A stretch of DNA of 37,878 nt, taken from Bacteroidales bacterium (GTDB lineage Bacteria; Bacteroidota; Bacteroidia; Bacteroidales; Prolixibacteraceae). The notes beneath the pieces are model-generated. The model was given only the letters and a program-made list of their open reading frames with translations, had not been told where the DNA came from and did not search any database. How positions within the stretch are numbered: the first letter of the stretch is position 1; the number at the start of each line of letters is the position of its first letter. Below are positions 10,082 to 36,145 of this stretch, piece by piece. The stretch covers positions 1 through 37,878 of the forward strand of contig JAISSS010000143.1 of the NCBI GenBank assembly GCA_031272965.1, written 5' to 3'. Both the position numbers and the translations under genes were made by a program.

Positions 10082-11176
10082 TCAGTTACGTGCAGCATGG
10101 CGGTATATGAAGAATGCAAAGACCCCGAACCCGATATTGGGTATCCATACCGCCAGCCAGGCCGGCATGGACCCGGAAGTGGCAAATACCGTCGTGATTT
10201 GCAGGAACAGAATATATGAGAAGCTGATGAGTATTCCCAGCCCCAGATGCAGCCCCAATCCGCCTTTCACTTTCTTGGATGCCAGCGATACGCCAATCAG
10301 GGTAAGAATGAAAATGGAGAAGGCTGACGAGGTACGCTTGTGTTTTTCTATCTCATATTCGGTGGGATTCACCCCGCGCAGCCGCAAATCCTGTATTTCC
10401 TTGTTCAGTTTGGGCAAGGTCATGGTCTCTACCACATGTTTTATTACGCGGTAGTCTTCCGGTTTCATATTGATAAGGGTGTCCATTTCGGCGCCGGAAG
10501 TGAGGGTCTCGTGATAGCCGTCAATATCGCGGATATAGTAATCGTTGATGTGCCACGTTTTCTTCTCCCTGTCCCAGCGGATGCTGCTGGCCGTCAGCTT
10601 GCGCTTGAGTGTGCCATCCTTAAATTCCTCCATCGTGAAGCGGTGCCCCACATCGTTGGAGGTGTTGTAATAGCTCATGTAAATATACAGCCCCGGCGAT
10701 ATCTGGCGGTGAATATTCGTCTCATGGGTCTGCTGGTTAGTATAGACATATTTGTTGGAAAAATCAACCCGCTTTTTGTTGGCCGGCGGAATGATATAGT
10801 TGCTGAGGGTAAAAGTAAAGACTGCAATAATCAGCGCCGAAATCATGTATGGTCGGGTAAGCCGGTAGAACGAAATGCCGCTGCTCAGTATCGCGATGAT
10901 TTCTGTCTGGGATGCCATCTTGGACGTGAAATAGATGACGGCAATAAAGGTGAACAGCGAGCTGAACAGATTTGCAAAATATGGGATAAAGTTCAGATAA
11001 TACTCGAACACTATCTCTTTGGCGGAAGCTTCCTTTGAGAGGAAATCATCGAGCTTTTCCGACAGGTCGAATACTGTGGCGATGCTCACTATCAGGATGA
11101 TGGAATAGAAAAAAGTTCCGAGGAATTTCCTGATAATATAGCGGTCAAGTATCATCAATTTCAAATTTTTATTCAT
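10082..11176 (-). CDS. LptF/LptG-type permease (YjgP/YjgQ family)
   Basis: This 364-residue inner-membrane protein belongs to the permease family that extracts lipopolysaccharide from the inner membrane together with LptB and LptC. It has an N-terminal membrane segment after ILDRYIIRKFLGTFFYSIIL, two more hydrophobic segments around residues 45-115, a large periplasmic beta-rich domain (about 130-280), and three C-terminal membrane segments ending IGFGVFAFFIYRHAARN. This is the six-helix plus beta-jellyroll order of LptF/G. I start at ATG 11176, five bases after the tgt stop; an in-frame ATG at 11206 lies inside tgt and a later one at 11155 is also possible. Which half (F or G) it represents is not clear. 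Confidence 0.8.
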   Translation of the reverse strand: MNKNLKLMILDRYIIRKFLGTFFYSIILIVSIATVFDLSEKLDDFLSKEASAKEIVFEYYLNFIPYFANLFSSLFTFIAVIYFTSKMASQTEIIAILSSGISFYRLTRPYMISALIIAVFTFTLSNYIIPPANKKRVDFSNKYVYTNQQTHETNIHRQISPGLYIYMSYYNTSNDVGHRFTMEEFKDGTLKRKLTASSIRWDREKKTWHINDYYIRDIDGYHETLTSGAEMDTLINMKPEDYRVIKHVVETMTLPKLNKEIQDLRLRGVNPTEYEIEKHKRTSSAFSIFILTLIGVSLASKKVKGGLGLHLGLGILISFSYILFLQITTVFATSGSMPAWLAVWIPNIGFGVFAFFIYRHAARN

Positions 11177-11180
11177 GGGG

Positions 11181-12311
11181 TTAGAGTCGTTGTGAAAGTT
11201 TTTCAATGATTTCTGATTTCCATGCGGCGAAGTTGTCGGCGAGGATTTGTCGGCGGGCTTCGCAGACTAAACGGCGGTAGAAAGCGAGGTTATGGCGGCT
11301 TGCGATTTGGGAGCCGAGCATTTCGCCCGCAATTATGAGGTGCCGCAGGAAGGCTTTGGAATAGGCGTGGTCAACGAAGGAATCGCCGTCGGGGTCGATG
11401 GGCGAGAAGTCGTCAATCCACTTGTGATTTTTGATATTAATCATTCCGTTGGCGGTGAAGAGCATTCCGTTGCGTCCGTTTCGGGTAGGCATGGTGCAGT
11501 CGAACATATCCACGCCGCGTTCGATGGCTTCGAGCAGGTTGGCGGGGGTACCCACCCCCATCAAATATCGGGGTTTGTCGGCTGGCAATATCGGATTGAC
11601 CACCTCAATTATGCGGTACATGACCTCTTCCGGTTCGCCGACGGCTAATCCGCCGATGGCATAGCCGTCGGCAGGGATGTCGATGATATGGCGGGCGGCC
11701 TGCTCGCGCAGGTCGGCGTAGGCGCCCCCCTGTACGATGGGAAACAGCGACTGCTCATAGCCGTACAGCGGACGGGTCTGCTCCATGCGGTTGATGCAGC
11801 GGTCGAGCCAGCGCTGGGTAAGACCGAGCGCTTTGCGGGCGTACTCGTAGGAAGCATCGCCCGGCGCACACTCGTCAAATGCCATGATGATGTCGGCACC
11901 AATGCTGCGCTGGATGTCGATGACCGATTCTGAAGTGAACAGATGTCGCGAACCGTCAATGTGCGACTGAAACTTCACGCCCACTTCGGTGAGCTTGCGG
12001 ATGTCGGTGAGCGAGAACACTTGAAAGCCGCCGCTGTCGGTGAGCATCGGGCCGTGCCATCCGCAGAAGCGATGTAATCCGCCTGCCCCTTCGATGACTG
12101 CGGTTCCCGGACGCAGAAACAGGTGATAGGTGTTGCTCAAAATTATCTGTGCGCCGATGTCGTCTTTTAGCGTATCAACATGAATCCCCTTCACTGAACC
12201 GGCCGTCCCTACCGGCATAAATACCGGCGTTTCAACGGTCCCGTGAGCGGTATCAAATACGCCGGCCCGTGCCTGCGTCTGCGAATCCTGATGTATGAGA
12301 TTAAATAGCAT
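11181..12311 (-). CDS. tgt: Queuine/preQ1 tRNA-ribosyltransferase (Tgt)
   Basis: This 376-residue enzyme exchanges guanine-34 of the Asp/Asn/His/Tyr tRNAs for the queuosine precursor. It shows TPVFMPVGTAGSVKG, the catalytic DSGGFQVFSL, FDECAPGD, GGLAVGEPEE and the nucleophile region GVDMFDCTMPTRNGRNGMLF. The C-terminal zinc site of characterised enzymes (CxCxxC with a later His) is missing: the three cysteine positions are Gly309, Ser311 and Asp314, while the later His in SRHNLAFY is kept. To my recollection other Bacteroidota Tgts also lack the cysteines, so this is probably a lineage trait rather than inactivation. First gene of the tgt-permease-DUF5686 operon; a -7 box lies only 11 bases upstream. 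Confidence 0.92.
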   Translation of the reverse strand: MLFNLIHQDSQTQARAGVFDTAHGTVETPVFMPVGTAGSVKGIHVDTLKDDIGAQIILSNTYHLFLRPGTAVIEGAGGLHRFCGWHGPMLTDSGGFQVFSLTDIRKLTEVGVKFQSHIDGSRHLFTSESVIDIQRSIGADIIMAFDECAPGDASYEYARKALGLTQRWLDRCINRMEQTRPLYGYEQSLFPIVQGGAYADLREQAARHIIDIPADGYAIGGLAVGEPEEVMYRIIEVVNPILPADKPRYLMGVGTPANLLEAIERGVDMFDCTMPTRNGRNGMLFTANGMINIKNHKWIDDFSPIDPDGDSFVDHAYSKAFLRHLIIAGEMLGSQIASRHNLAFYRRLVCEARRQILADNFAAWKSEIIEKLSQRL

Positions 12312-12322
12312 AATTCAGGGCA

Positions 12323-12330
12323 CAAAGATA
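12323..12330 (-). promoter_or_regulatory. Promoter -7 element for the tgt operon
   Basis: TATCTTTG on the minus strand ends 11 bases before the tgt ATG. With the usual spacing, transcription would begin only a few bases before the start codon, so the leader should be very short. Confidence 0.5.
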
Positions 12331-12445
12331 CGCGAAAATTGTGAATTTGGAGTTATAAAATACATTTTATTATTGTCAATCCGCTTTTTTTATGCGGCCG
12401 TTCAATCCGTTCCCGGCGCATAGCTGTGATAAAGTGAACGCCGAT

Positions 12446-12919
12446 TCAGGGTATTATAATCATTTGTTCTCCGGTAGTTATTTTCTCGCAATATTTGCAT
12501 TTGAGGGCAAGATGTCCCTTGTTGCTCACCGTAAATGACGTGCGCACCGTCTCATGATTGGTTATGCAGGCCGGATTAAAACACTTGATGGCGCCTTCGA
12601 CGACATCCGGCAGCCCAATATCGCGTATTTTCCTGGTAACTTGATAGTTACGAATGATGTTCAGGCTGGCGTGGGGGGCAAACAGCGCTATCTTCTTGAT
12701 GTCGTCGCCCTCAAAAAACTTGTTGGCTATTTTGATAATTGCCTTTTTGCCCATCATTTTGCTGTCGAGGTTGGCGCCAAAAGTTACCTGGTTTGATGTG
12801 GCGTCGAGTTTCAATATGGAGATTACTTTAAACAGGTGGTCAGAGGGGATGTGGTCGATGACTGTTCCGTCCTGAATTGCGCTGACTTTCAGCTGTGTGT
12901 TTATGTCTTTCTGTTCCAT
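12446..12919 (-). CDS. pyrI: Aspartate carbamoyltransferase regulatory subunit
   Basis: This 157-residue subunit binds nucleotide effectors and joins PyrB trimers into the allosteric enzyme of pyrimidine synthesis. The N-terminal allosteric domain begins LKVSAIQDGTVIDHIPSDH, like E. coli PyrI, and the zinc domain has CFNPAC and a later CKYC pair, giving the C-x4-C ... C-x2-C arrangement. Length agrees with the family (about 153). It starts 12 bases after the pyrB stop, in the usual pyrBI order. Confidence 0.95.
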   Translation of the reverse strand: MEQKDINTQLKVSAIQDGTVIDHIPSDHLFKVISILKLDATSNQVTFGANLDSKMMGKKAIIKIANKFFEGDDIKKIALFAPHASLNIIRNYQVTRKIRDIGLPDVVEGAIKCFNPACITNHETVRTSFTVSNKGHLALKCKYCEKITTGEQMIIIP

Positions 12920-19320: not shown

Positions 19321-20460
19321 TTATTGGCGGTGCAATTTTTTGAGGCCGGTCTCTATGGCGGCTTTCAGGCGCTGGCCGATTTCTTCGATGGCGCCCATAC
19401 CGTCGATGTGGAAATGCTTTCCCTGGTTGGCATAGTACTGCTTTAAAGGGGCTGTTTTTTCATGATACACCTGAATACGGTTTTCAATGACCGCAGCATC
19501 CCGGTCGTCGCTGCGGCCGGACGTCTGGCCGCGATTAAGCAGGCGGGACACGAGTTCCTCCTTTTCGACTTCGAGCGACAACATGCCGGATACGGGAATC
19601 CCAAGTTCTTCGAGCATGCGGTCTAATTCTTCGGCCTGCTTTACCGTGCGCGGGAAGCCATCAAAAATAAACCCGTGTGCATCACGGTGGCTCTCAATTC
19701 GGTGCTTTATCATGCCGATAACTACGGCGTCGGGCACGAGTTCTCCCTTGTCCATGAAAGTTTGGGCCTGGCGGCCAAGCGGTGTATCCGCGGCAATTTC
19801 GCTGCGTAACAAATCGCCGGTTGACAGATGCGTAAGCCCGAACTCCCGGATGAGAAATTCCGCCTGGGTGCCTTTGCCGGCTCCGGGCGGACCAAATAAG
19901 ACAATATTCAACATTGGCTCTGTATTTTTGATTCTGTATATTTCCGGTAAATTACGGGCGAATCCGTCATAATCCAGCCCGTAACCGATGATAAAATCGT
20001 TGGGAATCTCAAGGCCGACATAATCGGGCACGACGTTGCATTTTAGCGCGCCGGGCTTGAAAAGCAGTGCCGCTGTTTGAACTTCTGCAACATTCAGCGC
20101 CTGAAACTGCTTCATCAGGTATGAAATCGTAACACCTGTATCAATAATGTCTTCGAGGATGACCACCGTATGCCCGGCAATATCTTCGCTCAGGCCGATG
20201 AGTTCCTGCACCGCGCCGGTGGACGTCTGCCCGCGATACGAGGCAAGCCGTATGAACGAAATCTGTGCCCCTTCCACCGTGATACGCCGGAACAGGTCGG
20301 CGGCAAACATAAATGCCCCGTTTAATATGCACATAAACAGCGGAGGTTTACCCGCTAACCGGCGATTCATCTCCATTGCCATGCGCGTAACAGCCGCTTC
20401 AATCTCGACCGCCGACAGATACCGCTCAAATGTCTTGTCTAAAATCTTGATGACATCCAT
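19321..20460 (-). CDS. Fused hypoxanthine phosphoribosyltransferase / adenylate kinase
   Basis: A single 379-residue frame joins two purine enzymes. Residues 1 to about 178 are an HPRT: MDVIKILDKTFERYL start, LNGAFMFAADLFRRI, the flexible-loop RLASYRGQTSTG, and the PRPP motif VVILEDIIDTGVTISYL; it ends with the family-typical GLDYDGFARNLPEIYRIK. After only four residues (NTEP) comes a complete short-type adenylate kinase: MLNIVLFGPPGAGKGTQAEF (P-loop), HLSTGDLLRSEI, FIFDGFPRTVKQAEELD and GRSDDRDAAVIENRIQVY, without a zinc LID insert. HPRT makes IMP/GMP; Adk equilibrates AMP, ATP and ADP. I start at ATG 20460; an ATG at 20502 lies upstream of the promoter box. The Adk could also be made separately from its own Met at 19914. 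Confidence 0.9.
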   Translation of the reverse strand: MDVIKILDKTFERYLSAVEIEAAVTRMAMEMNRRLAGKPPLFMCILNGAFMFAADLFRRITVEGAQISFIRLASYRGQTSTGAVQELIGLSEDIAGHTVVILEDIIDTGVTISYLMKQFQALNVAEVQTAALLFKPGALKCNVVPDYVGLEIPNDFIIGYGLDYDGFARNLPEIYRIKNTEPMLNIVLFGPPGAGKGTQAEFLIREFGLTHLSTGDLLRSEIAADTPLGRQAQTFMDKGELVPDAVVIGMIKHRIESHRDAHGFIFDGFPRTVKQAEELDRMLEELGIPVSGMLSLEVEKEELVSRLLNRGQTSGRSDDRDAAVIENRIQVYHEKTAPLKQYYANQGKHFHIDGMGAIEEIGQRLKAAIETGLKKLHRQ

Positions 20461-20470
20461 TTTTTTTTTG

Positions 20471-20478
20471 CAAAAATA
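20471..20478 (-). promoter_or_regulatory. Promoter -7 element for the HPRT-Adk/TatD operon
   Basis: TATTTTTG on the minus strand, separated from the ATG at 20460 by ten bases, C followed by nine A. The transcript should therefore be leaderless or nearly so. The box also excludes the longer start at 20502. Confidence 0.5.
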
Positions 20479-20542
20479 CATGAAAACTTTGAAATCACAC
20501 ACACATAGCGAAAAAAATATCCCCGTGCAGCATTTTATTTAG

Positions 20543-23191: not shown

Positions 23192-24592
23192 TTATTTGGC
23201 CACAATTTTGAAGTTGCGGATAATAAGCTCGTAGTTAGGATTGGTGGGAATGCCATCATTATTGCCGGCCACGTCAAAGCGGATGAAGTGGTTGGCAGGT
23301 GCCTGCCCGCCGGAGCTGTCCAATCCCCATCCGGCCATCGGGTTGGCGTCGGGGTTGGCAGGCCAGGTAATCTTGTACTCGAAGGTTTTCCAGTTGTCAG
23401 CGGCTTCAATTACGATGTTCTGGCCGGTGGAACGTTCTCCCTGCGGGCCTCCGGCAACGCACCAGAAGAACTCGGCATGGCTGATTTTGCGGTTGAGCTT
23501 GTAGTCGAAGGTAATATAATAATTACGCTTGATGTTCAGCATGGTACCGAGTTTGGATGTGTTGATGTATGAATCGTTGCCAACAACGGTGAGTTTCACC
23601 GAGCCGTCGGAGAGTTCTTCGGCAGTCAGTGCATTTGCGGTGCTGACGAGCAGGCTCAGCTGTATTGGTTCCGGCAGGCCGTCCTGGACGACGTTCAGCG
23701 TCCGGGTGATGGTGGGATACTCTTTCAGGCTGAACCTGACGGCCGATGTGCGCTGTGCGGCCGGATTCTGGATGGCGGTGAGTTTCACGGAGCTTGCTGT
23801 AACATCCGACTTGGTGAGCCATGTGTCGTTGGCGGGAATTGATACTTCCCACTGCTCGTCGGCAGTAACGGTAACTGTGGTAAAGTCGCCGATGTCTTCA
23901 AGCATGGCTTTGTCGGCGCTCACTGTCAGCACGGGCGCGTAAGGGTCTTGAGTGAAGGTGATTTCCTGCGTGATGTCGGGATAGTTTTTCAGGGCGAAAG
24001 TAACCACGGCGGTGCGCTTGTCCAAGGTGCGGTTCTGTGTGGCGACGAATTTCACCGAATCGGCAGTGAGGCCGGTTGTGGAGAGCCAGCTGGCGGATTT
24101 GGGGATTGACACTTCCCATTCGTCCTTGTTGGAGACCACGTAGAAGGCGCGCTCGGTGGTTCCGCCGTTCACGGTGAACGCGGCGTTATCGGGCGTTACC
24201 GCTATTGCGGGGCCGTACTTGTTCTGGGTAACGTCAATATACCACATCTCTTCGAAGTTCATGATGAACAGGATACGTGCGGTGCGGTCAACGGTGGTGG
24301 CGTTCTTCTTCACTGAAATGGAGATTTTGCTTTCCTCCGTGCCGTCGCCGGAAGTGGGGGTAACGGTGAGCCAGTCGGCGTCGTTGGTGATAGACCACGG
24401 GCCATTAGCCCATACGGAGAATGTGGATACGGCGTCATCTTCGGCATTGAAGAGGGCGGTAGAGACCGGCCCGACTACCATGCGCGGTTCGGTTGTTTCC
24501 TTCTCCTCGCAGGCGGTGATAGCAAGCATTGACAGGCTCGCCACGACCGCGGTGAAGCAATTAAAGGTAAAATAATTAATGAACCTTTTCAT
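23192..24592 (-). CDS. BACON-repeat lipoprotein with C-terminal jelly-roll-like module
   Basis: This 466-residue lipoprotein (lipobox AITAC, Cys28) has three BACON-type repeats (about 36-130, 130-222, 222-308), with cores ADWLTVTP, ASWLSTTG and DTWLTKSD and closing strands IDVTQN, ITFTQD and LNVVQD. The C-terminal ~155 residues (DGSVKLTV through RNFKIVAK) form a separate beta-rich module with ITFDYKL, AEFFWCVAGGPQGERSTGQN and NHFIRFDVAGNNDG. The same motifs recur inside SusD2 of this operon. The module may correspond to a Pfam family such as DUF4979, which I could not check. Glycan binding at the cell surface is inferred from BACON domains and the SusCD context. No enzyme motif is seen. Confidence 0.78.
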   Translation of the reverse strand: MKRFINYFTFNCFTAVVASLSMLAITACEEKETTEPRMVVGPVSTALFNAEDDAVSTFSVWANGPWSITNDADWLTVTPTSGDGTEESKISISVKKNATTVDRTARILFIMNFEEMWYIDVTQNKYGPAIAVTPDNAAFTVNGGTTERAFYVVSNKDEWEVSIPKSASWLSTTGLTADSVKFVATQNRTLDKRTAVVTFALKNYPDITQEITFTQDPYAPVLTVSADKAMLEDIGDFTTVTVTADEQWEVSIPANDTWLTKSDVTASSVKLTAIQNPAAQRTSAVRFSLKEYPTITRTLNVVQDGLPEPIQLSLLVSTANALTAEELSDGSVKLTVVGNDSYINTSKLGTMLNIKRNYYITFDYKLNRKISHAEFFWCVAGGPQGERSTGQNIVIEAADNWKTFEYKITWPANPDANPMAGWGLDSSGGQAPANHFIRFDVAGNNDGIPTNPNYELIIRNFKIVAK

Positions 24593-25639: not shown

Positions 25640-27973
25640 TCAGTTCCATCCGGGATTTTGCCAGCTTTCGCCGGTGTATTCCTGCATTTTCAGCACTTCG
25701 CTTTGCATGATGGGGAACATGAGATACTTGTCGGTATTTGTTCCGCGTTCTTTAAGTTTTATGCGGGTGTAGTCGAAAGTATTGCTGCTGTTTTTAGTTA
25801 TTTTCATGCCGGTAACGAAGTTGTCGGTTTGGCTGAGGATTTTCCAGCGGCGCACGTCGAAGAAGCGGTGTTCTTCGAAGGCGAGCTCTACGCGGCGTTC
25901 GTTACGGTAGCGGGCTTCGAAGTCTGACTTCGACAGTCCTGCGGGCAGTTTTGGCATTTGAGCCCGCAGGCGGAGCGAATCCACGGCATCGATAGCCGAG
26001 AGGGAGAGGCCTCCGGCCACTTTGGCGGGGACCACCGTGCTGGGGCTTCCGGCGTTGTAAGCCGCCTCGGCGAAGTTGAGATACAGCTCACCCATTCTGT
26101 AGAGGCGGATGATGGGGTCAACGGATACGCCGACGGCAGATTTATAGTTGTTAAATTTGCGCAGGTAGTATCCCGTGCGGGTGTAGCGGGTATCTGTAAC
26201 CCTGTCGGATATGCCGCAGTTGCCGCCCACGAATGTCTCCACACTCACGATTGGCGGGGGCGGGGTATAGCTGACAATCATGGGGCTCTTGATGGTCAGG
26301 GTAACGCCTATCTGGTTATTGACGAAGTCAAAGCGCAGGAAGTGCTGTTCCACGGGTTCGCTGCCGGCTACGGTCATGTCGGCATTTCCGAATCCGTAGT
26401 CGCCGTCCACATTGCCGCCGATTTCATGCTCGAAATGTATCCATTCTCCGGGTTCGGTTTTCACGATGGTCATATTCTGGCCGGTGCTTCTGCCGCCTTC
26501 GGGGCCGCCTCTCACACAGAAGAAGAACTCTGCATCCCACACGTTTCCGTCGCACTGGTAGTCAAAAGATACTACACGCTTGACGGCTTTTACGATAGGT
26601 TTGCCGATGTTGGTGAAATAGTAGTATGCATCGGCGCCGGTGGATGTGGCGGTTATCGAGCCGTCCGCGTTGACGGTAACGGTGCATCGGGAGGGGTTGT
26701 CGCCGGGTGATGGCGGGGTACGGTATCCCATGGTGATTTTGCCGAGGGTGTCGTTCTTACCCAGCAGTGCGCGGTCGGAATTATTGTAGTAAATTGAGGC
26801 GTAGAAGCGCGGGTCACGTCCCTCGTAGGGATTTGCGGGGTCGTAGTCGGTGGCTAAGGGGTTGTAGATTGGGATGAGGTGGTCGGCGTCAGCATAGCCC
26901 AGAATTGGGGGTACGCCGGTGCTCTGCATCTCATAGCTGTCCACGAGTTCCTGCGAAGGCCCCGCCCCTGCCGCATTCTGGCCCTCAGTAACGGGGGTTC
27001 CCGCATTTATCCACACGTTAGAGCGGCTACCGGCGCCATAGATGGTTTCCTTATCCACGGCGCGGCTGGCGTCAGAGGTAACCACGCAACAATAGTAGTC
27101 GTAGGCACTGCGGGCGATGTCGCTTGATGGGGTGATATTAAACAGGCGGAAGCCGTGAGCATAGCACTCGTCGAGGGCTTCTTTGGTGATTTCCAGCGCC
27201 TTGTTCCAGTCATATTTACTGCCGCTGGCATACCATAAGGGGCTTGCCGCATAGAGGGCGGCCTGCGATTTCACCGCCCAGGCGAAGGCGCGGGTGATGG
27301 TGCCGTTCTCGTTGTCGCTCAAGTCCCAGCGGAATCCCACAGTAGAGCGGGATGATATTGGCAGGGCCAGCGCCGAATCGCACGAGGCCATGATGAAGTC
27401 CACACATTCCTCGAAAGAGGCTCTGCGGTCCTGCGTAAAGTCGTAGCCTATTTCGTATGGTTTGTCCATTATCGGGACGCCGCCATAGCGCTTGATAAGC
27501 TGCAGGTAGTAGAACCCGCGCAGGGTATATACTTCTCCAATCCAGCCGCTAAGCTCGTCGGCTTCGATGGCGGCGGTGAATATTTCGGGGTCGTTGATAT
27601 ATGTCAGGAAAGAATTACATTTCCGTATTCCCTCGAAATAATGCTGCCACACGTCGCCCACGGGGTTTGAGAACACTGATGTGCGGTTGTTATACCAGTT
27701 GTTGGGGCTGCTGCTCACGCCGTCGGCGGCGTCGTGGGCCTCGTCGCTGTAGGAGGCCAGCAATGCGCCGCCATTATTGAATCCGGGCGTGATGATGTAG
27801 TCGCGGCACCGGTCGTGGTAGTTGCGCACCCGATAGTATTCGCTGAAGACAGTTTCTATCGTCAGGCGGCCGTCGGAGGGCAGGTCGAGGTCGGCACAGG
27901 CGGGCATTCCCGTCAGCACGACTGCAGTGGTCAGGATATTAAGAATACTGCGTTTTAAGTCTTTGTTTATCAT
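25640..27973 (-). CDS. SusD/RagB family lipoprotein with an inserted module (SusD2)
   Basis: This 777-residue outer-membrane lipoprotein (lipobox MPAC, Cys26) is the lid/binding partner of SusC2. The SusD fold is clear: WQHYFEGIRKCNSFL, the TPR-like EVYTLRGFYYLQLIKRYGGVP, RAFAWAVKSQAALYAASPLW, PSQELVDSYEM, GRDPRF and the C-terminal FEARYRNERRVELAFEEHRFFDVRRW, ending GESWQNPGWN. It is ~160 residues longer than SusD1 (615). The extra length lies at about residues 410-570, between GRDPRFYASIYYN and ETFVGG...RTGYY; in SusD1 the same two landmarks are about 25 residues apart. The insert has DYQ..., AEFFFCVRGGPEGGRSTGQN, WIHFEHEI and QHFLRFDFVNNQIG, matching the C-terminal module of the BACON lipoprotein at 23192-24592. 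It starts 11 bases after the SusC2 stop. Confidence 0.92.
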   Translation of the reverse strand: MINKDLKRSILNILTTAVVLTGMPACADLDLPSDGRLTIETVFSEYYRVRNYHDRCRDYIITPGFNNGGALLASYSDEAHDAADGVSSSPNNWYNNRTSVFSNPVGDVWQHYFEGIRKCNSFLTYINDPEIFTAAIEADELSGWIGEVYTLRGFYYLQLIKRYGGVPIMDKPYEIGYDFTQDRRASFEECVDFIMASCDSALALPISSRSTVGFRWDLSDNENGTITRAFAWAVKSQAALYAASPLWYASGSKYDWNKALEITKEALDECYAHGFRLFNITPSSDIARSAYDYYCCVVTSDASRAVDKETIYGAGSRSNVWINAGTPVTEGQNAAGAGPSQELVDSYEMQSTGVPPILGYADADHLIPIYNPLATDYDPANPYEGRDPRFYASIYYNNSDRALLGKNDTLGKITMGYRTPPSPGDNPSRCTVTVNADGSITATSTGADAYYYFTNIGKPIVKAVKRVVSFDYQCDGNVWDAEFFFCVRGGPEGGRSTGQNMTIVKTEPGEWIHFEHEIGGNVDGDYGFGNADMTVAGSEPVEQHFLRFDFVNNQIGVTLTIKSPMIVSYTPPPPIVSVETFVGGNCGISDRVTDTRYTRTGYYLRKFNNYKSAVGVSVDPIIRLYRMGELYLNFAEAAYNAGSPSTVVPAKVAGGLSLSAIDAVDSLRLRAQMPKLPAGLSKSDFEARYRNERRVELAFEEHRFFDVRRWKILSQTDNFVTGMKITKNSSNTFDYTRIKLKERGTNTDKYLMFPIMQSEVLKMQEYTGESWQNPGWN
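26260..26745 (-). other. Jelly-roll-like module nested in SusD2
   Basis: This codes for about residues 410-570 of SusD2, from GKITMGYRTPP to the proline linker SYTPPPPIVS. Flanking proline/glycine-rich joints (TPPSPGDNPSR before, TPPPP after) look like inter-domain linkers. Homology to the module at 23192-23660 is by eye over about 140 residues. Confidence 0.75.
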
Positions 27974-27984
27974 GTCTGAACATT

Positions 27985-30900
27985 TTAGAAGTTAACACTA
28001 AGACCGAGATTATAGACCCTGTAGGGCTGATACATCGTCATCGAGAATATTTCGGGGTCGATGTATTTGGTTTTCATATTGTCGATAGTGAACACGTTAT
28101 GCACGTTGATTGCGAGGCGTACCCGCTCGGAGCGGATTTTGCGGGCGATATTGTCGGGCAGCGTGTAGGCTAATTCCACATTTTTGAGGCGCACAAACGA
28201 GCGGTCTTGCAGGAAGTAGTCGCTGTTCTGGTGGTTTGAGGATGTGGAGAGCGACAGGGCGGGGAAAGTGATGCTTTCGCCTGCCGCATAGCGTTCGGGC
28301 GTCCATGCGTTCTGGTGCAGGTCGCTGTAGTAGCCGTAACGGGTTGCTGTTTCCTTGACGCCCACTAAGCTGGTGGTGAATGATGACCAGTTGCTGACGC
28401 CCTGAAAGAACAGCGCTATTTCCCAGTTCTTCCATGTAGCGCCCAGATTGAGGGCATATTCTACTTCGGGATATGAGGGATAGCCCATCGGGACGACGTC
28501 TTTGGCGTCAATCACGCCGTCGTTGTTGAGGTCTATATACTTGAGGTCGCCCAAGCGGGGTGCGCCGAATGAGTATGTCAGGCCGGAAGTGGCCAGCTCG
28601 TCGGCAGAGTTGAACATTCCGTTGCCGTTGCTGTAGTCAACAAGGTAGCCCCATTGCTGTCCCCAGCGGTAGCCTTCGGAATGATAGCGGTATGGATAGT
28701 CCGTGTCGTAGGGGGCCTCGTCCACATCTATCACCTTGTTACGGGCGAAGGTATAGTGGAAGTCGGCGTTCACGGCAAGTTCCTTATTAAAGTGTTTGTT
28801 GAATCCCAGCGTCAGCTCGTATCCGGCGTTCTCCATCTTGCCGGCGTTGATTTTCGGGTAGTATCCCAGCGCAATTCCCTGATATTGAGGAATGCGGTTG
28901 CTGCCGGAAATCAGCATATTGTCAACCTTGTCGGTAAAGTAGTCGAAGCCGACGGTAACCATGTCGAACAGTCCGAGGTCGATACCTAAGTTGAGCTTTT
29001 TGATTTTCTCGGCTTCTAATTTCGGGTTTCCGTATTCGAGTTCACGGCCGTCGGCGCGGATATTTGTCAGGTAAGCGAAGCGGGTACCCATCTGGTCGTT
29101 GGCAGTGATGCCGTAAGAGGCGCGGAGTTTGAGCAGGCTCACGTAATCGTTCTCAAAGAAGTCTTCTTTGGAGAGGATGTATGCGGCCGAAATCGCGGGG
29201 GTTGCCGTATAGCGGTAGTCCGGATGGAACTGTTCGGAGCCGGAATAGCCGATATCGCCCTTGAGGAAATAGCGGTCTTTGTAGCCGTAAAGCACACTGA
29301 GGCCGAAGTTCTGCCGTTTATATGGCAGAATTGAATTGCCGGAGCCGGTGGCTTCCTTTTCCTGCAGCAGGTAATAGGTGTGGGCGGAGGCGTCAATGCT
29401 GTGCTCGCCAAAGCGGCGGTTATATTCAGCGTTGGCAAACAGGTCTAAATAGTAGAAGAATACATGTCCTTTCCCGTATGCTAACGGTGTGTCCTCGTAG
29501 GTTTTATACACCGAGAAGTTGTCTAAGCGGTCGAAGCTGTTGTCACGGATAACCCGCACGTAGCTTTGGGTGGTGGTGGTGGCATTACGCACGTATGTTT
29601 GATATGCCATTGCGCCGCTCACTGACAGCCCTTTTGTGAGGAAGCTCATGTCAACTTTCAGGCCGACCTGGGCTATCACGTTGGTCTCGATGACCTGCGT
29701 ATAGCCGCTGCGGTTGAGGATGCCATAGACGGACGAGTCGAAGCCGTCCACCACTACCGCCTTGTTGCTGACAGTGGGCTCATCTTCGATGATAGGCGAG
29801 ACGGGGCCGAACATTGTCGGCGGGGCGTTGAACAGTTCGCTGTAGATGTTCCATCCCATCGTGCCGCCGCCGGAGAGCTGTTCGCGTTTGATGCTGCCGG
29901 TAAGGCGCATATACCCCGACACATATTTGCTGAACTTGGCGTCCATATTTGAGCGGAAGTTCACAATCTTCACATTCGGAGTGGGGTCATAACTGCGGTC
30001 CGGTTCGTCAGTGATTTTGAAGGGTTCTTCCTGGTTCACGAATCCGATGTCCGAGAAATAGTGGAATGTGTCGTTGCCCCCGATAACATTAACGCCCACA
30101 CGCTGTCGCGTTACCGCCTTGCGCATGTAGATGTCGTACCAGTCGTTATTCGGGTATGAGATGTCGTCGCCGGCGGCGAAGTGGTCAATTTCGTCCTGTG
30201 AGAACTGGGAATATGGTCCCAGTCCGTCACGTTCACCGGCTTCGTTCCGCAGTTCGGCATAGCGGGCCGAGCCATAGAACGGGGGACGCCGGGTCATCTG
30301 CTGGACGGAGAAGTCGCCGTAGGCCTCTATCTTTTTAGGGCCGCTGTAGCCGCGCTTGGTCGTGATAACTATTGCGCCGCTGGCGCCCTGTATGCCGTAT
30401 ATTGCGGTTGCGGAGGCGTCTTTGAGGGCCGTAATACTCGCGATTTCTTTGGGCGAGATGAACTCATAATACTGGGTAGGCGTAACTACCCCGTCGATGA
30501 TTATCAGCGGGCTGGCGTCATTGTTTGAATAGCGGCCGCGTATTCTCATGCTGGTATTGTTGTATCCGAAGAAGGTCAGTTCGGGGATTGCCGAGATTGT
30601 TGATACGCCGGTGAGGCGTCCCTGATAGGTCTCTGACAGCACGTTTGAAGGGGTGCGGTTGATGACATCGCCACTGACCGTGGCCACAGCCCCCGTAAAC
30701 GATTCGCGGCTGTGCAGGTCATAGCCGGTGTTGATATAGCCGCCCTGATTGTGGTTGTCGAACTTCAGCACGATTTTCTCCAGCTTATTGAGCTGCTCTA
30801 CGGATATGCGCTGGTTTAAATAGCCTGCCGCAGAGACGGTTACAAAGCTGCTGCCGTCATTGATTATCAGCATGTATATGCCTGTTTTCGGCGTGAAGTA

Positions 30901-31062
30901 CTGATTGTCGCCAAATTCGGAGACCAGCAGGGCGCCGCCTATCGGCTGGTCGAAGATGTTGACCACCCTGTTCTGGACTTCCTGGGCTACAGCCCCCTGC
31001 CCCACCAGCACGGCCATCGTGCAGAGCGCTGCATATCTGATATATTTGTAGAAAATATTCAT
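27985..31062 (-). CDS. SusC/RagA family TonB-linked outer-membrane transporter (SusC2)
   Basis: The 1025-residue barrel imports the ligand captured by SusD2. A signal peptide ends near GAVAQ (residue 26). The N-terminal extension (about 30-105) is a divergent carboxypeptidase-regulatory-like domain. The plug has SNVLSETYQGRLTGVS, the family signature MRIRGRYSNNDASPLIIIDG and IASITALKDASATAIYGIQG followed by ASGAIVITTKRG. The barrel strands follow, and the protein ends YRVYNLGLSVNF with the terminal Phe of outer-membrane proteins. It lies 40 bases after SusD1 and 11 bases before SusD2, so translation is probably coupled to the latter. Confidence 0.95.
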   Translation of the reverse strand: MNIFYKYIRYAALCTMAVLVGQGAVAQEVQNRVVNIFDQPIGGALLVSEFGDNQYFTPKTGIYMLIINDGSSFVTVSAAGYLNQRISVEQLNKLEKIVLKFDNHNQGGYINTGYDLHSRESFTGAVATVSGDVINRTPSNVLSETYQGRLTGVSTISAIPELTFFGYNNTSMRIRGRYSNNDASPLIIIDGVVTPTQYYEFISPKEIASITALKDASATAIYGIQGASGAIVITTKRGYSGPKKIEAYGDFSVQQMTRRPPFYGSARYAELRNEAGERDGLGPYSQFSQDEIDHFAAGDDISYPNNDWYDIYMRKAVTRQRVGVNVIGGNDTFHYFSDIGFVNQEEPFKITDEPDRSYDPTPNVKIVNFRSNMDAKFSKYVSGYMRLTGSIKREQLSGGGTMGWNIYSELFNAPPTMFGPVSPIIEDEPTVSNKAVVVDGFDSSVYGILNRSGYTQVIETNVIAQVGLKVDMSFLTKGLSVSGAMAYQTYVRNATTTTQSYVRVIRDNSFDRLDNFSVYKTYEDTPLAYGKGHVFFYYLDLFANAEYNRRFGEHSIDASAHTYYLLQEKEATGSGNSILPYKRQNFGLSVLYGYKDRYFLKGDIGYSGSEQFHPDYRYTATPAISAAYILSKEDFFENDYVSLLKLRASYGITANDQMGTRFAYLTNIRADGRELEYGNPKLEAEKIKKLNLGIDLGLFDMVTVGFDYFTDKVDNMLISGSNRIPQYQGIALGYYPKINAGKMENAGYELTLGFNKHFNKELAVNADFHYTFARNKVIDVDEAPYDTDYPYRYHSEGYRWGQQWGYLVDYSNGNGMFNSADELATSGLTYSFGAPRLGDLKYIDLNNDGVIDAKDVVPMGYPSYPEVEYALNLGATWKNWEIALFFQGVSNWSSFTTSLVGVKETATRYGYYSDLHQNAWTPERYAAGESITFPALSLSTSSNHQNSDYFLQDRSFVRLKNVELAYTLPDNIARKIRSERVRLAINVHNVFTIDNMKTKYIDPEIFSMTMYQPYRVYNLGLSVNF

Positions 31063-31101: not shown

Positions 31102-32949
31102 TTACCAACCCGGGTTTTGCCATTTCGTTTGCGTAACGGCTTCGAGGTTTGAAGCCTCATCGAAGGGAAGCGGCAGCAGCAGGTCTTTGTTTTGCCAGCC
31201 GCCCCGCGGGTTCTCGCGGATAGAGCGTCGGGTATAAGTATAGTTTGAGCCGTTCTTTTCAATCTGCATGGCCGTAAAGTATTTGCAGGTGGCACTGAGG
31301 TCTCCGTCAGGCGTTTGCCAGCGGCGCAGGTCAAAATAACGGTTTTCTTCCCATGCCAGCTCTATGCGGCGCTCATTGCGGATACGCAGGATGAGGTCTT
31401 CCTTCGACAGTCCGGCGGGCAGGTCGGGCATGCCGGAGCGGGCACGTACCTCGTTGGCGGCGGCAGCGGCCTCGGCGAAATGGCCTGCTTCTGCGGCGGC
31501 CTCGGCTAAGTCAAGCAGCAGCCCTCCAAGACGGTAATATTTCCAGTTGGAGTTGTTTATCTGGATGGCATTACTCGATTTTGGCGTAACCATTTTGTAG
31601 TGGTAGTATCCCGTGCGGGAATGGGTGCGGTTGTTGATGTCCCAGCTCGGCTCATGCGCCCCGCCCATGTATGTCTGTATCTCTATGTCCCAACTCGTGA
31701 ACGGCGCTTTCGGTTCCATTTCTATATGGACACCGTTATAGAGTACGTATTCTGCGAACCGCGGGTCACGGTTTTCGTAGGGGTTATTGGGGTCATAGAG
31801 GGTGTTATCCCTATTGTAGTTCGGTTGCAGGTGCCGCTCGTCAAGATAGGGTTTTGCCAGGTCGAGAACGGGCTTGCCGTCGATGGTCTCGAAAGCGTCC
31901 ACGAGTTCCTGGGTGGGACAGGTGCCGCACTTGTATGTGTTCGGGTGGTCGCAGCCGATATAGCCGATGTGCCACACGAAAGTGCCGCCGTCGCGCACCT
32001 GGAAGATGGTTTCCTTATCGCGCGGGGTTGCCGAGTAGTCGGCATTATTGCAGACCAACTGTCGCAGGGCGGCCGCAGGGCCGGTGCCGAAGCCTGCTTG
32101 ATTCGTGCAGGCGGTAAACAGCTCATAGCCATTGGCTTTGAGCAGCTGAACGGAGTTGCTGATTTCCTGGTAGGCCTCTTCCCAGAGGTTCAGGCCGTCG
32201 TTATGCAGGGGGCTTGCCGCAAAGAGCATGGCATTCGCCTTGAGGGCGCAGGCCAGCGCTTTGGTGGTTCGCATGGCGTCCGCGCTATTGTCGATGCGCC
32301 ACGGCAACATCGGCTCGGCGAGGGCTTCCGTACATTCCTTAACGATAAACCGTGCCACTTTAGCTACCGAATCGCGGCGGTAGGTGGTAAAATCGGCGTC
32401 GTAGGACACCGACCCTTCAATTACCGGTACCCGTCCGAACCACTTCACAAGTTCCATGTAGAAGAAGGCCCGCAGCACTTTGGCTTCGGCTTTGAAGCGG
32501 CCGCGGTTGGCCGGTTCCGACACGGCGGTGGTCTCCTGGTCTATCAGCTCAATGAACTGCGAGCAGAGGTGAATTTGCTGCCACGACCGCTCCCAATAAG
32601 CGGCATTATAGGTGGCAGGCGTGTGGTTATCGGCCGGCCAGTCGCGCAGCCAGTGCTTGGCGGCCGTGTTATTGTCATTATAGCAGCCTGTAACGCTCTG
32701 GTCGGCGGCGTCATCGGACGACCACCCGTCATCGGAGCAGGCCACCACTAATGGGTCAAAGAACCAGTAAACGTATCCTTTTCGCGGGATTTGATTATAG
32801 CAGGCGTTGAGCAGCGCCTCGACGCGGAGCGGGTCCGAAAGGATTTCATCCATTTGCAGCAACCCGTCTGGAGCGCGGTCAAGCACATCGGTGCAGCCGC
32901 CAAACAGTGCGCCTGCAAATATCATTAATATAAGAGTATATTTTTTCAT
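31102..32949 (-). CDS. SusD/RagB family lipoprotein (SusD1)
   Basis: The 615-residue lipoprotein (lipobox FGGC, Cys19) is the partner of SusC1. Visible SusD features are SDPLRVEALLNACYNQIPRKG, WERSWQQIHLCSQFIELI, AEAKVLRAFFYMELVKWFGRVPVIEG, KALACALKANAMLFAASPLHN, CPTQELVDAFE, NRDPRF, RTGYYHYKMV and the C-terminal LILRIRNERRIELAWEENRYFDLRRW. It ends in QTKWQNPGW, near identical to the SusD2 end, showing the two SusDs are related. Length is near the top of the normal range and no extra domain is apparent. Confidence 0.94.
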   Translation of the reverse strand: MKKYTLILMIFAGALFGGCTDVLDRAPDGLLQMDEILSDPLRVEALLNACYNQIPRKGYVYWFFDPLVVACSDDGWSSDDAADQSVTGCYNDNNTAAKHWLRDWPADNHTPATYNAAYWERSWQQIHLCSQFIELIDQETTAVSEPANRGRFKAEAKVLRAFFYMELVKWFGRVPVIEGSVSYDADFTTYRRDSVAKVARFIVKECTEALAEPMLPWRIDNSADAMRTTKALACALKANAMLFAASPLHNDGLNLWEEAYQEISNSVQLLKANGYELFTACTNQAGFGTGPAAALRQLVCNNADYSATPRDKETIFQVRDGGTFVWHIGYIGCDHPNTYKCGTCPTQELVDAFETIDGKPVLDLAKPYLDERHLQPNYNRDNTLYDPNNPYENRDPRFAEYVLYNGVHIEMEPKAPFTSWDIEIQTYMGGAHEPSWDINNRTHSRTGYYHYKMVTPKSSNAIQINNSNWKYYRLGGLLLDLAEAAAEAGHFAEAAAAANEVRARSGMPDLPAGLSKEDLILRIRNERRIELAWEENRYFDLRRWQTPDGDLSATCKYFTAMQIEKNGSNYTYTRRSIRENPRGGWQNKDLLLPLPFDEASNLEAVTQTKWQNPGW

Positions 32950-32968: not shown

Positions 32969-35900
32969 TTAAAATGTAACGTTAATACCGAAGTTTACCA
33001 TCTTGGTTAAGCCATAGCTCAAGGCATAGCTCATTTCGGGGTCAACCACATTGACGGGGAGTTTTGTCCATGTCCAGAGGTTGTTGCCATTGACATATAT
33101 TCTGGCGCGACTCATGTTGATGGATTTCAGCAGGGTTTTGGGGATATTGTAGCCCAGTTCGATGTTCTTCAGGCGCAGGAAGGAGCGGTCCATAATGAAC
33201 ACGCTGTTGGCGCGCTGGCTGACGCCCTGGGAGGTTCCCAAAGCGGGATATGTAATTTTGTCGCCTTTCACGTAGCGCTCAGGCGTCCACGCATTGCGGT
33301 GCCATCCCGAATAGAAGCCCACAAGTCCGAACTCGGTAACGCCCCAGTCGGTCTGCGTCCAGCTGCTCTGGCCGATGCCGGTAAAGAGGAAAGAGAAGTC
33401 GAAGTCGTGGAACTCTAAGGAGCCGGAGAATCCGTATGATATGCGGGGAACGCTGGGATAGCCTATCGGGGCGATGTCGCGGTCGTTAACTACTCCGTCC
33501 GGTTCAGGGCCGTCGGGGCCGCTGACCCCTGCGATGTCCTTATACATGAAGTCGCCCAGACGCGGCACCCCGCCTACCGCATAGGTCGGCAAATTGTCAA
33601 GTTCACTTTGGGTATTGATATAGCCGTTGCCATTGCTGTAGTCTATCAGGTAGCCCCACTGTGTGCCGATGCTGTAGCCGGTGCTGCGGAAAGGATAGGC
33701 ATAGTCGGAACCATAGCGTACCTCGTCGGCAAATATCACCTCATTGCGGTTATAGGCAATGTTGCCTTTCACGTTGAAGCTGATGTCGTTAGTGATATTT
33801 TTGCGGTAGCCGACTTCCAGTTCTGCGCCCTTGTTATCGACAATACCAAGGTTTACTTTCGGTATATTGCTTATCGGCACTCCCTGCAGTATCGGCACGG
33901 TTTTGCGGGTGATGAGGATTTTGTCGCGGTGTTCCGAGAACACGTCCGCGGTGATAGTGATGGCATCGAACAGGCCTATCTCAAGTCCGGCGTTCTTCTT
34001 TTCGGCTTTTTCCCACTGGACGTGGTCATTGCCGATAAGCCCCTGGTTCACCTGCTGGCCGCGTCCGAGGCTGCTGTAGATGCCGCTCCCCATCGTTATG
34101 GAACTCTGGTAGAGGAAACGTCCCTGACCGCTGTCATTACCGGTGATGCCGTAAGAACCGCGTATCTTGAGGAACGAAATCACGGGGTTGTCTTTGAGGA
34201 ACTCTTCGCGGCTGGCCACCCATCCTATCGAATAGGAGGGGAACGAGCCGAAGCGGTTGGCCGGAGCGAACTGCTCTGAACCGTTACGCCCGTAGTTAAA
34301 CTCGGCTAAATAACGCCCCGCATAATCGTAGGTTACGCGGGCTATCATACCTATAACATTATGGGGCACGGCGGCGCCATAATCCTGGTGGTCGCGCTGG
34401 TAGAGCAACATGCCGGTAACGTTGTGGTCTTCGGCAAAGGTACGGGCATAGTTGAGCGACAGCTGATAGTTGGTATAGTAGCTGGTACTCATATTCTTGC
34501 TGATAGAGATGGATGTGTCCTGGTTGCTGTTAATCGGTGAATAGGAACTTATTCCACCGGCTTCGCGGGCCACCGTAACAGAATAGCTGTCAAGGTCTTT
34601 ATGGCCTTCCAAAACGGTATTGGCGCTGGTGTCGAAAGCCACTAATCCTTTGAAGCTCAATCCTTTAGTGATAAAGTTCAACTTCCAGTCCACGCCGAGC
34701 GAGGAGTTGAGGGTGGTGCTGGTCTGCTGGCGGTATCCACGGCGGTTGATTTCGCCGTAAGTGTTACGGTCCTGGCCGGACTGTGCCACTATTTCTCCGG
34801 CCGGTACGCCATAGCCGGCGGCGGTCAGCGGGCCCGGGTCGGTGGGCGGGGTAGCCCACGTATAGGCTATCATGTTCTCAATCATGGTCGTTACGCTGCC
34901 GCCAAACAGTTGCGTCGTTTCCGGAGTGTTCATCCGCTGCAGATAGCTCGAAATATTCAGCGAGAACTTCAGGTCGTCAATCGGTTTGTAGTCGATGTTG
35001 CCGCGGAAGTTATAGCGGTTCATTTTATAGCTGGGGTCGTAGCCCAATTTGCTCTCCGGCTCGGTCTTGAAGTTACCCCCCTGCCCTATGTAACCGGCAT
35101 TGAGGAAGTAAGTAAAGTCTTTCTGGCCGCCGTTAAAGTTGGCATTAAGCCGGGTTTGGGGCGCCCAGTCGCGGAAGTAGTCATGAAACACGTCGCGGTC
35201 GGGATAGAACACGGGGTCTTCGCCACTGCGGTACATGTCAATCATATACTGTGTAAAGGGGTAAGTGCTTTCGCTGGCTGTAGGGTTGGAATTTTTGTAT
35301 GCCTGGTTGCGCAGTTCGGCAAATTCCCACGAATGGAGTCTGTCGGCATGGACGATGAACTTTTGCAGGCTGTAGTCGGCCGAGATGCTCAGTTCCGCTT
35401 TTCCGGCCTCGCCGCGGCGGGTGGTGATGAGGATAGCGCCGTTAGCGCCGCGCACACCGAATACGGCCGTGGCCGAGGCGTCCTTGAGGATAGATATTGA
35501 TTCCACCTCGTTGGGGTCGAGCATGCTGATTCCACTGCGCGGCACCCCGTCAATGAGGATGAGCGGTGTGGCGTCATTAAGGGTTCCCAGTCCGCGCAGA
35601 TAGAGGTTCACCACATCGTTGCCGGGCTGTCCCGACCGCTGCATGACCGTCAATCCGGGCAGCCGTCCCTGCAAGGCAGTAGAAAGGTTGGCTTGCGAGC
35701 TCTGTTTCAGCTCCTTGGTCTGCACTGTAGATATTGCGGCCGTAACCGATTCCTTCTTCTGTACGCCATACGCCACTACCACAACCTCGTCAACGCTGGC
35801 CGTTTCTACGGCGAGCACAACATTGATGGACGAGCGGGCGCCAACCGGCTGCTCTTGCGTCTGGAATCCTATGAAGCTGAATACCAGCACATCGGATTCC

Positions 35901-36145
35901 TTCGCCTGAATTGCATATTTGCCGTCCGCGTCAGTTACAACTCCGGTTGAGGCACCCTTTATCTGTATTGTAGCGCCGGGTAGCGGCTCGCCGTCCGCCG
36001 TCTTCACCATTCCGGTGATACGACGCTGCGGCTGCTGCATATCCGCTTCGTTTTTTGGCGCAGCACCCACTGTGAGCGCTAACGCGGCGGTGAAAAGGAA
36101 GCCCAAAACCGCTTTTGTAATTGATTCAGTGATACGTAGTTTCAT
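32969..36145 (-). CDS. SusC/RagA family TonB-linked outer-membrane transporter (SusC1)
   Basis: This 1058-residue first gene of the operon has a signal peptide (to about residue 28), a classical carboxypeptidase-regulatory-like domain (RRITGMVKTADGEPLPGATI through VLVFSFIGFQTQEQPV, about 41-103), a TonB-box-like VDEVVVVAYGVQKKESVT (about 117-134), and the plug with LSTALQGRLPGLTV, YLRGLGTLNDATPLILIDG and VESISILKDASATAVFGVRG. No STN signalling domain lies between signal peptide and plug, so regulation by a SusC-sensed anti-sigma factor is unlikely. The barrel ends LTKMVNFGINVTF. SusD1 starts 19 bases after its stop. Confidence 0.96.
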   Translation of the reverse strand: MKLRITESITKAVLGFLFTAALALTVGAAPKNEADMQQPQRRITGMVKTADGEPLPGATIQIKGASTGVVTDADGKYAIQAKESDVLVFSFIGFQTQEQPVGARSSINVVLAVETASVDEVVVVAYGVQKKESVTAAISTVQTKELKQSSQANLSTALQGRLPGLTVMQRSGQPGNDVVNLYLRGLGTLNDATPLILIDGVPRSGISMLDPNEVESISILKDASATAVFGVRGANGAILITTRRGEAGKAELSISADYSLQKFIVHADRLHSWEFAELRNQAYKNSNPTASESTYPFTQYMIDMYRSGEDPVFYPDRDVFHDYFRDWAPQTRLNANFNGGQKDFTYFLNAGYIGQGGNFKTEPESKLGYDPSYKMNRYNFRGNIDYKPIDDLKFSLNISSYLQRMNTPETTQLFGGSVTTMIENMIAYTWATPPTDPGPLTAAGYGVPAGEIVAQSGQDRNTYGEINRRGYRQQTSTTLNSSLGVDWKLNFITKGLSFKGLVAFDTSANTVLEGHKDLDSYSVTVAREAGGISSYSPINSNQDTSISISKNMSTSYYTNYQLSLNYARTFAEDHNVTGMLLYQRDHQDYGAAVPHNVIGMIARVTYDYAGRYLAEFNYGRNGSEQFAPANRFGSFPSYSIGWVASREEFLKDNPVISFLKIRGSYGITGNDSGQGRFLYQSSITMGSGIYSSLGRGQQVNQGLIGNDHVQWEKAEKKNAGLEIGLFDAITITADVFSEHRDKILITRKTVPILQGVPISNIPKVNLGIVDNKGAELEVGYRKNITNDISFNVKGNIAYNRNEVIFADEVRYGSDYAYPFRSTGYSIGTQWGYLIDYSNGNGYINTQSELDNLPTYAVGGVPRLGDFMYKDIAGVSGPDGPEPDGVVNDRDIAPIGYPSVPRISYGFSGSLEFHDFDFSFLFTGIGQSSWTQTDWGVTEFGLVGFYSGWHRNAWTPERYVKGDKITYPALGTSQGVSQRANSVFIMDRSFLRLKNIELGYNIPKTLLKSINMSRARIYVNGNNLWTWTKLPVNVVDPEMSYALSYGLTKMVNFGINVTF

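Follow-up and report, generated by a model that had tools for sequence, protein, structure and literature searches.

SusD2, a 777-residue lipoprotein encoded at 25640–27973 on the minus strand of the window (the whole stretch of 37,878 nucleotides analysed here), hosts a nested domain with a predicted beta-sandwich fold like that of carbohydrate-binding modules (CBMs). In close relatives, the same loop of the SusD body carries this domain (module A), an unrelated domain (module B) or only a short linker. We think it probable that the loop is a permissive site that takes a CBM-like cassette, adding a second glycan-binding surface to the SusD lid.

A domain nested in SusD2

The genes around SusD2 all lie on the minus strand. 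SusC1 (32969–36145, TIGR04056) and SusD1 (31102–32949, identified by Pfam and BLASTP), which has no insert, are followed by SusC2 (27985–31062, TIGR04056), a TonB-dependent transporter that is a conserved neighbour in relatives and the presumed partner of SusD2. Beyond SusD2, Pfam identifies the lipoprotein P0003 (24615–25610), with a BT_3987-like_N and an F5/8 type C domain, then the lipoprotein P0004 (23192–24592), with three BACON domains, and the lipoprotein P0005 (21266–23116), with three BACON domains and a C-terminal F5/8 type C-like domain. Elsewhere in the window, an open reading frame at 19321–20502 on the minus strand appears, from its sequence, to encode a hypoxanthine phosphoribosyltransferase-like domain fused to an adenylate kinase-like one.

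The body of SusD2 belongs to the SusD/RagB family (PF07980, PF14322): both profiles cover it, and its gene adjoins that of a SusC TonB-dependent transporter, in the same order as in relatives. By analogy with the family, SusD2 would serve as a glycan-binding lid on SusC. It resembles other family members in its body, its predicted SusD fold and its place beside SusC2, but differs in having a beta-sandwich of ~160 residues nested in the loop after GRDPRF.

A BLASTP alignment of SusD2 with SusD1 gave two aligned blocks, covering SusD2 residues 6–397 and 576–776. The blocks are separated by 178 residues in SusD2 and by 16 in SusD1, i.e., ~162 extra residues in SusD2, inserted after GRDPRFYASIYYN and before ETFVGG. 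The original prediction, which placed about 160 extra residues between these landmarks, was therefore accurate; for SusD1 it was right that the insert is absent, and the spacing of about 25 residues that it gave is close enough to the measured 16. With the insert in place, Pfam detected SusD-like_3 (E 3e-13) and SusD_RagB (E 3e-41), the latter as two partial matches, whereas the removal of residues 404–576 produced a single continuous SusD_RagB match (profile positions 21–297, E 2e-43). The two-block alignment and the continuous match after excision indicate that the insert is real, in frame and precisely placed. In BF3747 (3qnk), the closest solved sequence relative of SusD2, only ~30 residues separate the matched blocks at this site. 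The base composition of the insert gave no distinct signal, its GC content (56%) being equal to that of the whole gene.

The folded part of the insert, module A, comprises residues 411–569 (26267–26743), in nearly exact agreement with the interval of 26260–26745 proposed beforehand. It is joined to the body by an N-terminal linker (residues 399–410, 26744–26779), delimited by alignment with insert-free SusDs, and by a C-terminal proline-rich joint, TPPPPIVS (residues 570–577, 26243–26266), evident from its sequence and from the same alignment. An AlphaFold2 model of full-length SusD2, built on 21 aligned sequences, consists of a helical SusD body, which matches SusD chains in the PDB at Z 15–20, and a separate all-beta domain at residues 411–569, with pLDDT mostly >75 and lower in two loops. 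The loops of the SusD body around the insert are of low confidence because the alignment is shallow. Folded alone, the insert was predicted as a confident beta-sandwich (pLDDT 82, pTM 0.80). The structure prediction that had been proposed as a check thus supports a nested, independently folding, jelly-roll-like domain that is distinct from the helical body.

What does this fold resemble? The best solved matches of module A are almost all CBMs (CBM29, CBM30, CBM11, CBM6, CBM15 and CBM35), with the top matches at a Foldseek E of 2.5e-5 and a VIA Z of ~10 over 124–149 residues. Module A shares the fold and size of CBM29, CBM30, CBM11, CBM6 and CBM15, as well as their habit of joining glycan-active proteins; on the other hand, its sequence identity to them is ~10–13%, with no profile match, and it is nested in a SusD, whereas they are appended to enzymes. 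It also matches surface glycan-binding protein B of B. thetaiotaomicron (7kwc and 7kwb, Foldseek E 6e-5), a PUL surface protein with a similar beta-sandwich, just as module A also forms the end of P0004; however, the identity is 16%, and that protein is a separate lipoprotein and not a SusD lid. Jelly-rolls of phage baseplate and tail proteins and of Cry toxins also come near Z 9–10, so the fold alone is no proof of glycan binding. In structural terms, module A has the character of a CBM, being a discrete predicted beta-sandwich joined to glycan-active proteins (SusD, lipoproteins, DUF5722 proteins and others).

Sequence searches of Pfam (up to E 1), NCBIfam and the PDB assigned the insert to no family. 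A link to the profiles of CBM29, CBM30 or CBM11 yielded no match in Pfam (to E 1) or in PDB profile searches, which distant members could escape. DUF4979 (PF16351), which had been suggested as a family for the insert, was rejected, as it matched neither SusD2 nor 13 members of the module family and had no match anywhere in the genome at E 1. Neither module A nor module B, each a protein domain family, has a Pfam entry.

Module A in the genome and in relatives

The insert has a homologue in its own operon, a recurrence that the original prediction did not include. The C-terminal domain of P0004, the BACON lipoprotein two genes downstream of SusD2, aligns with it by BLASTP (E 1e-18, 35% identity), and a profile search also places this copy at residues 312–463 (23204–23659, minus strand). 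When the insert was used as a single-sequence query against relatives, matches outside its own genome were at chance level, several of them GH20-like by eye, and a five-member profile was needed to find relatives of module A. We used two profiles: A1, made from five diverse module A copies, and A2, made from module A of the SusD type. Profile A1 found six copies in the genome itself: one each in SusD2 and P0004, one in each of two DUF4998 lipoproteins encoded close to further SusCD pairs, and one in each of two tandem NAGPA-type proteins. The last two (L108:7604–10156 and 10161–12467, on contig C97 of this genome) are homologous to each other, each with a module A, and carry a NAGPA phosphodiester-glycosidase domain or a homologue of it; the one tested combines Big_2 with NAGPA. 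Whether module A is inserted into the NAGPA domain of P0013 was examined by excision; as this did not lengthen the NAGPA match toward the start of the profile, nesting is not proved, and we claim only that the module is adjacent to NAGPA.

With profile A2, we found module-bearing SusDs on eight contigs of the genome collection, from Maribellus sp., a Prolixibacteraceae MAG, Draconibacterium aestuarii, Parapedobacter defluvii, Proteiniphilum acetatigenes, Sphingobacterium psychroaquaticum and two other MAGs. On all eight, the SusD is 55–60% identical to SusD2 and carries the module at the same place, and the order SusD1–SusC2–SusD2 is kept wherever the contig reaches far enough. The orthologues belong to Prolixibacteraceae, Dysgonomonadaceae and Sphingobacteriaceae. 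That the insert aligns with a separate protein encoded in its own operon, and is retained in orthologues on eight contigs from several families, indicates that it is not a chance feature. Its distribution is patchy, with module A in 19 of 140 genomes of the family and in few of the order and phylum samples. P0001 had no match at E 1e-60 among 344 other genomes of the class, and the SusD subfamily is therefore rare.

Could the extra segment be merely a long, variable SusD loop that lacks a fold of its own, or else an artefact of assembly? Among SusDs without an insert, the length of the loop that follows GRDPRF is indeed variable, with 4–25 residues between the marks. Nevertheless, this explanation is already contradicted by the homologue in P0004, by the orthologous SusDs on eight contigs and by the beta-sandwich predicted for the isolated insert; moreover, homologous domains occur in other proteins, and the module-bearing SusDs are intact single open reading frames on contigs of up to 1 Mb, including those of Parapedobacter, Proteiniphilum and Sphingobacterium isolates. 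We regard it as highly improbable.

Module A is not confined to SusDs. On three of the eight contigs, a downstream protein has an N-terminal module A, and the two that were tested are both DUF5722 proteins. DUF5722 proteins (PF18989) resemble the SusDs in carrying module A, often in the same locus, but in them the module is terminal and not nested; it stands at the N-terminus of many such proteins and is triplicated in some. Three tandem copies occur in L125 and L127 (genome G737), where they form the N-terminal part of DUF5722-like proteins, and in L030/L042 (G034). A sulfatase-like open reading frame, identified by its sequence, lies beside another G737 copy (L123). The host range of module A, i.e., P0004, DUF4998 lipoproteins and DUF5722 proteins as well as a position beside NAGPA, is, as far as the sequences tell, a CBM-like distribution.

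Module A, module B or a linker at one SusD loop

The closest SusDs among the genomes of the family show three states at one site, an exchange that is likewise absent from the original prediction. Those of L063–L065 carry module A, those of L066–L069 carry module B (~123 residues, with the motif CPSWGNxxGNLTxSLYKW...VGVWKW) and in that of L086 nothing but a linker of about nine residues takes their place. Profiles of modules A and B showed no detectable similarity when compared (E 0.32). L064 (module A) and L086 (linker) come from one genome, G083, and have 89% identical flanks at the site, which strengthens the earlier claim of a precise insertion point; the flanks of L064 and L067 (module B) are 86/83% identical. 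Judging from these alignments, the SusD loop has a cassette architecture, and cassettes have been gained, lost or replaced between close relatives. The linker of L086 may be the remnant of a deletion of module B as opposed to an ancestral empty site, as suggested by the resemblance of its LNQPM to LDQPL, the start of the module B insert in L067.

In a tree of SusD bodies from which the insert had been removed, the state of the site changed at least four times. L065 (module A) and L066 (module B) are sisters at 100/99, and a single clade of all module A carriers was rejected (p-AU 8e-67). In the tree of the modules themselves, the inserts of L063–L065 group with DUF5722 modules, and the P0004 copy falls among the main group of SusD inserts. 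A clade of SusD inserts alone was rejected (p 0.0015), whereas a clade that also includes P0004 was not rejected (p 0.19). Hence either two acquisitions of module A by SusDs or one acquisition with a transfer to P0004 is possible.

Beyond SusDs, the two modules are found in lipoproteins and enzymes that often belong to the same loci, and module B is again nested in enzymes. A putative enzyme whose body has no Pfam class contains a nested module B (L101, 34–2535, and L115:7217–9718), and a homologue of it without the insert (L052:10570–12381), whose matches flank module B at 1–236 and 364–743, provides a second clean pair of presence and absence. A weakly GH130-like protein, encoded at L109:4456–6132 (contig C90 of this genome) and in L106, likewise has a nested module B; the L109 frame adjoins a sugar transporter and a nucleoside hydrolase.

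It is conceivable that the module serves docking or assembly, with its copies on SusD, lipoproteins and enzymes binding each other or SusC instead of glycan. Such a function would fit its presence on several proteins of one locus, and stable four-component complexes of SusC, SusD, enzyme and surface glycan-binding protein exist (PMC7618045). However, the N-terminal and triplicate copies on DUF5722 proteins and the match of the fold to CBMs speak against docking, and the exchange of module A for the unrelated module B, or for nothing, on 86% identical SusD bodies would be awkward for an obligatory assembly contact. We consider a docking role unlikely.

A different explanation is that the inserts are neutral or purely structural, the tolerant loop gathering domains that add volume to the lid but have no part in binding. 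Consistent with this, the flanks differ little whether the site holds module A, module B or a nine-residue linker, and the identity between the inserts of SusD2 and L060 (39%) is lower than that between their bodies (66–72%). On the other hand, SusDs from distant families retain an uninterrupted, in-frame module A in which motifs such as EFFFCVAGGPQGG are conserved, and modules A and B are found again on glycan-active proteins encoded in the same loci. To us, neutrality seems decidedly unlikely.

A possible glycan-binding cassette on the lid

We therefore return to the permissive loop that accepts a CBM-like cassette. In the SusD2 subfamily, one surface loop would accept whole domains, and the cassette would place a second glycan-binding surface on the lid, beside its own site and tuned to the substrate of the locus. 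The lid cassette could then retain long chains at the transporter as adjacent lipoproteins and enzymes, through the same or the partner module, grip the same polymer. Glycan binding by module A, the identity of the glycan and an outward-facing position that does not block closure of the lid are what we infer. The GH127, GH78 and DUF5722 genes found beside SusCD pairs in the loci of relatives suggest that the substrate may be a complex plant or algal polysaccharide.

SusD of the levan system closes onto oligosaccharides where it meets SusC, with R368 and Y395 of BT1762 contacting the ligand, and the W85A substitution, which weakens the ligand site of SusD, left growth unimpaired (PMC7782687), so a further binding site there need not affect uptake. 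The surface glycan-binding protein of that system projects outward and catches chains (PMC7618045). A CBM-like module on the lid could bring this capture function onto the transporter itself. The role in glycan capture proposed beforehand is plausible.

SusDs and CBMs are already known, and SusD is usually treated as a single-domain lid. A search of an open-access library of papers yielded no SusD with an inserted domain. A CBM-like domain nested in a SusD, at a site that holds an unrelated domain or none in close relatives, is new with respect to that literature.

More broadly, the loop may be a site of cassette exchange, at which PULs recombine unrelated glycan-binding modules among the lid, the surface lipoproteins and the enzymes of the same locus, an extension that we put forward tentatively, at a little under an even chance. 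If it is true, uptake specificity would be re-tuned by domain swapping instead of point mutation. The natural near-isogenic sets, with module A, module B or only a linker on bodies up to 89% identical, are suited to testing the disputed role of SusD in glycan binding. A lid with interchangeable CBM-like cassettes that also occur on its partner enzymes and lipoproteins would give Bacteroidota a concrete means of changing their glycan specificity.
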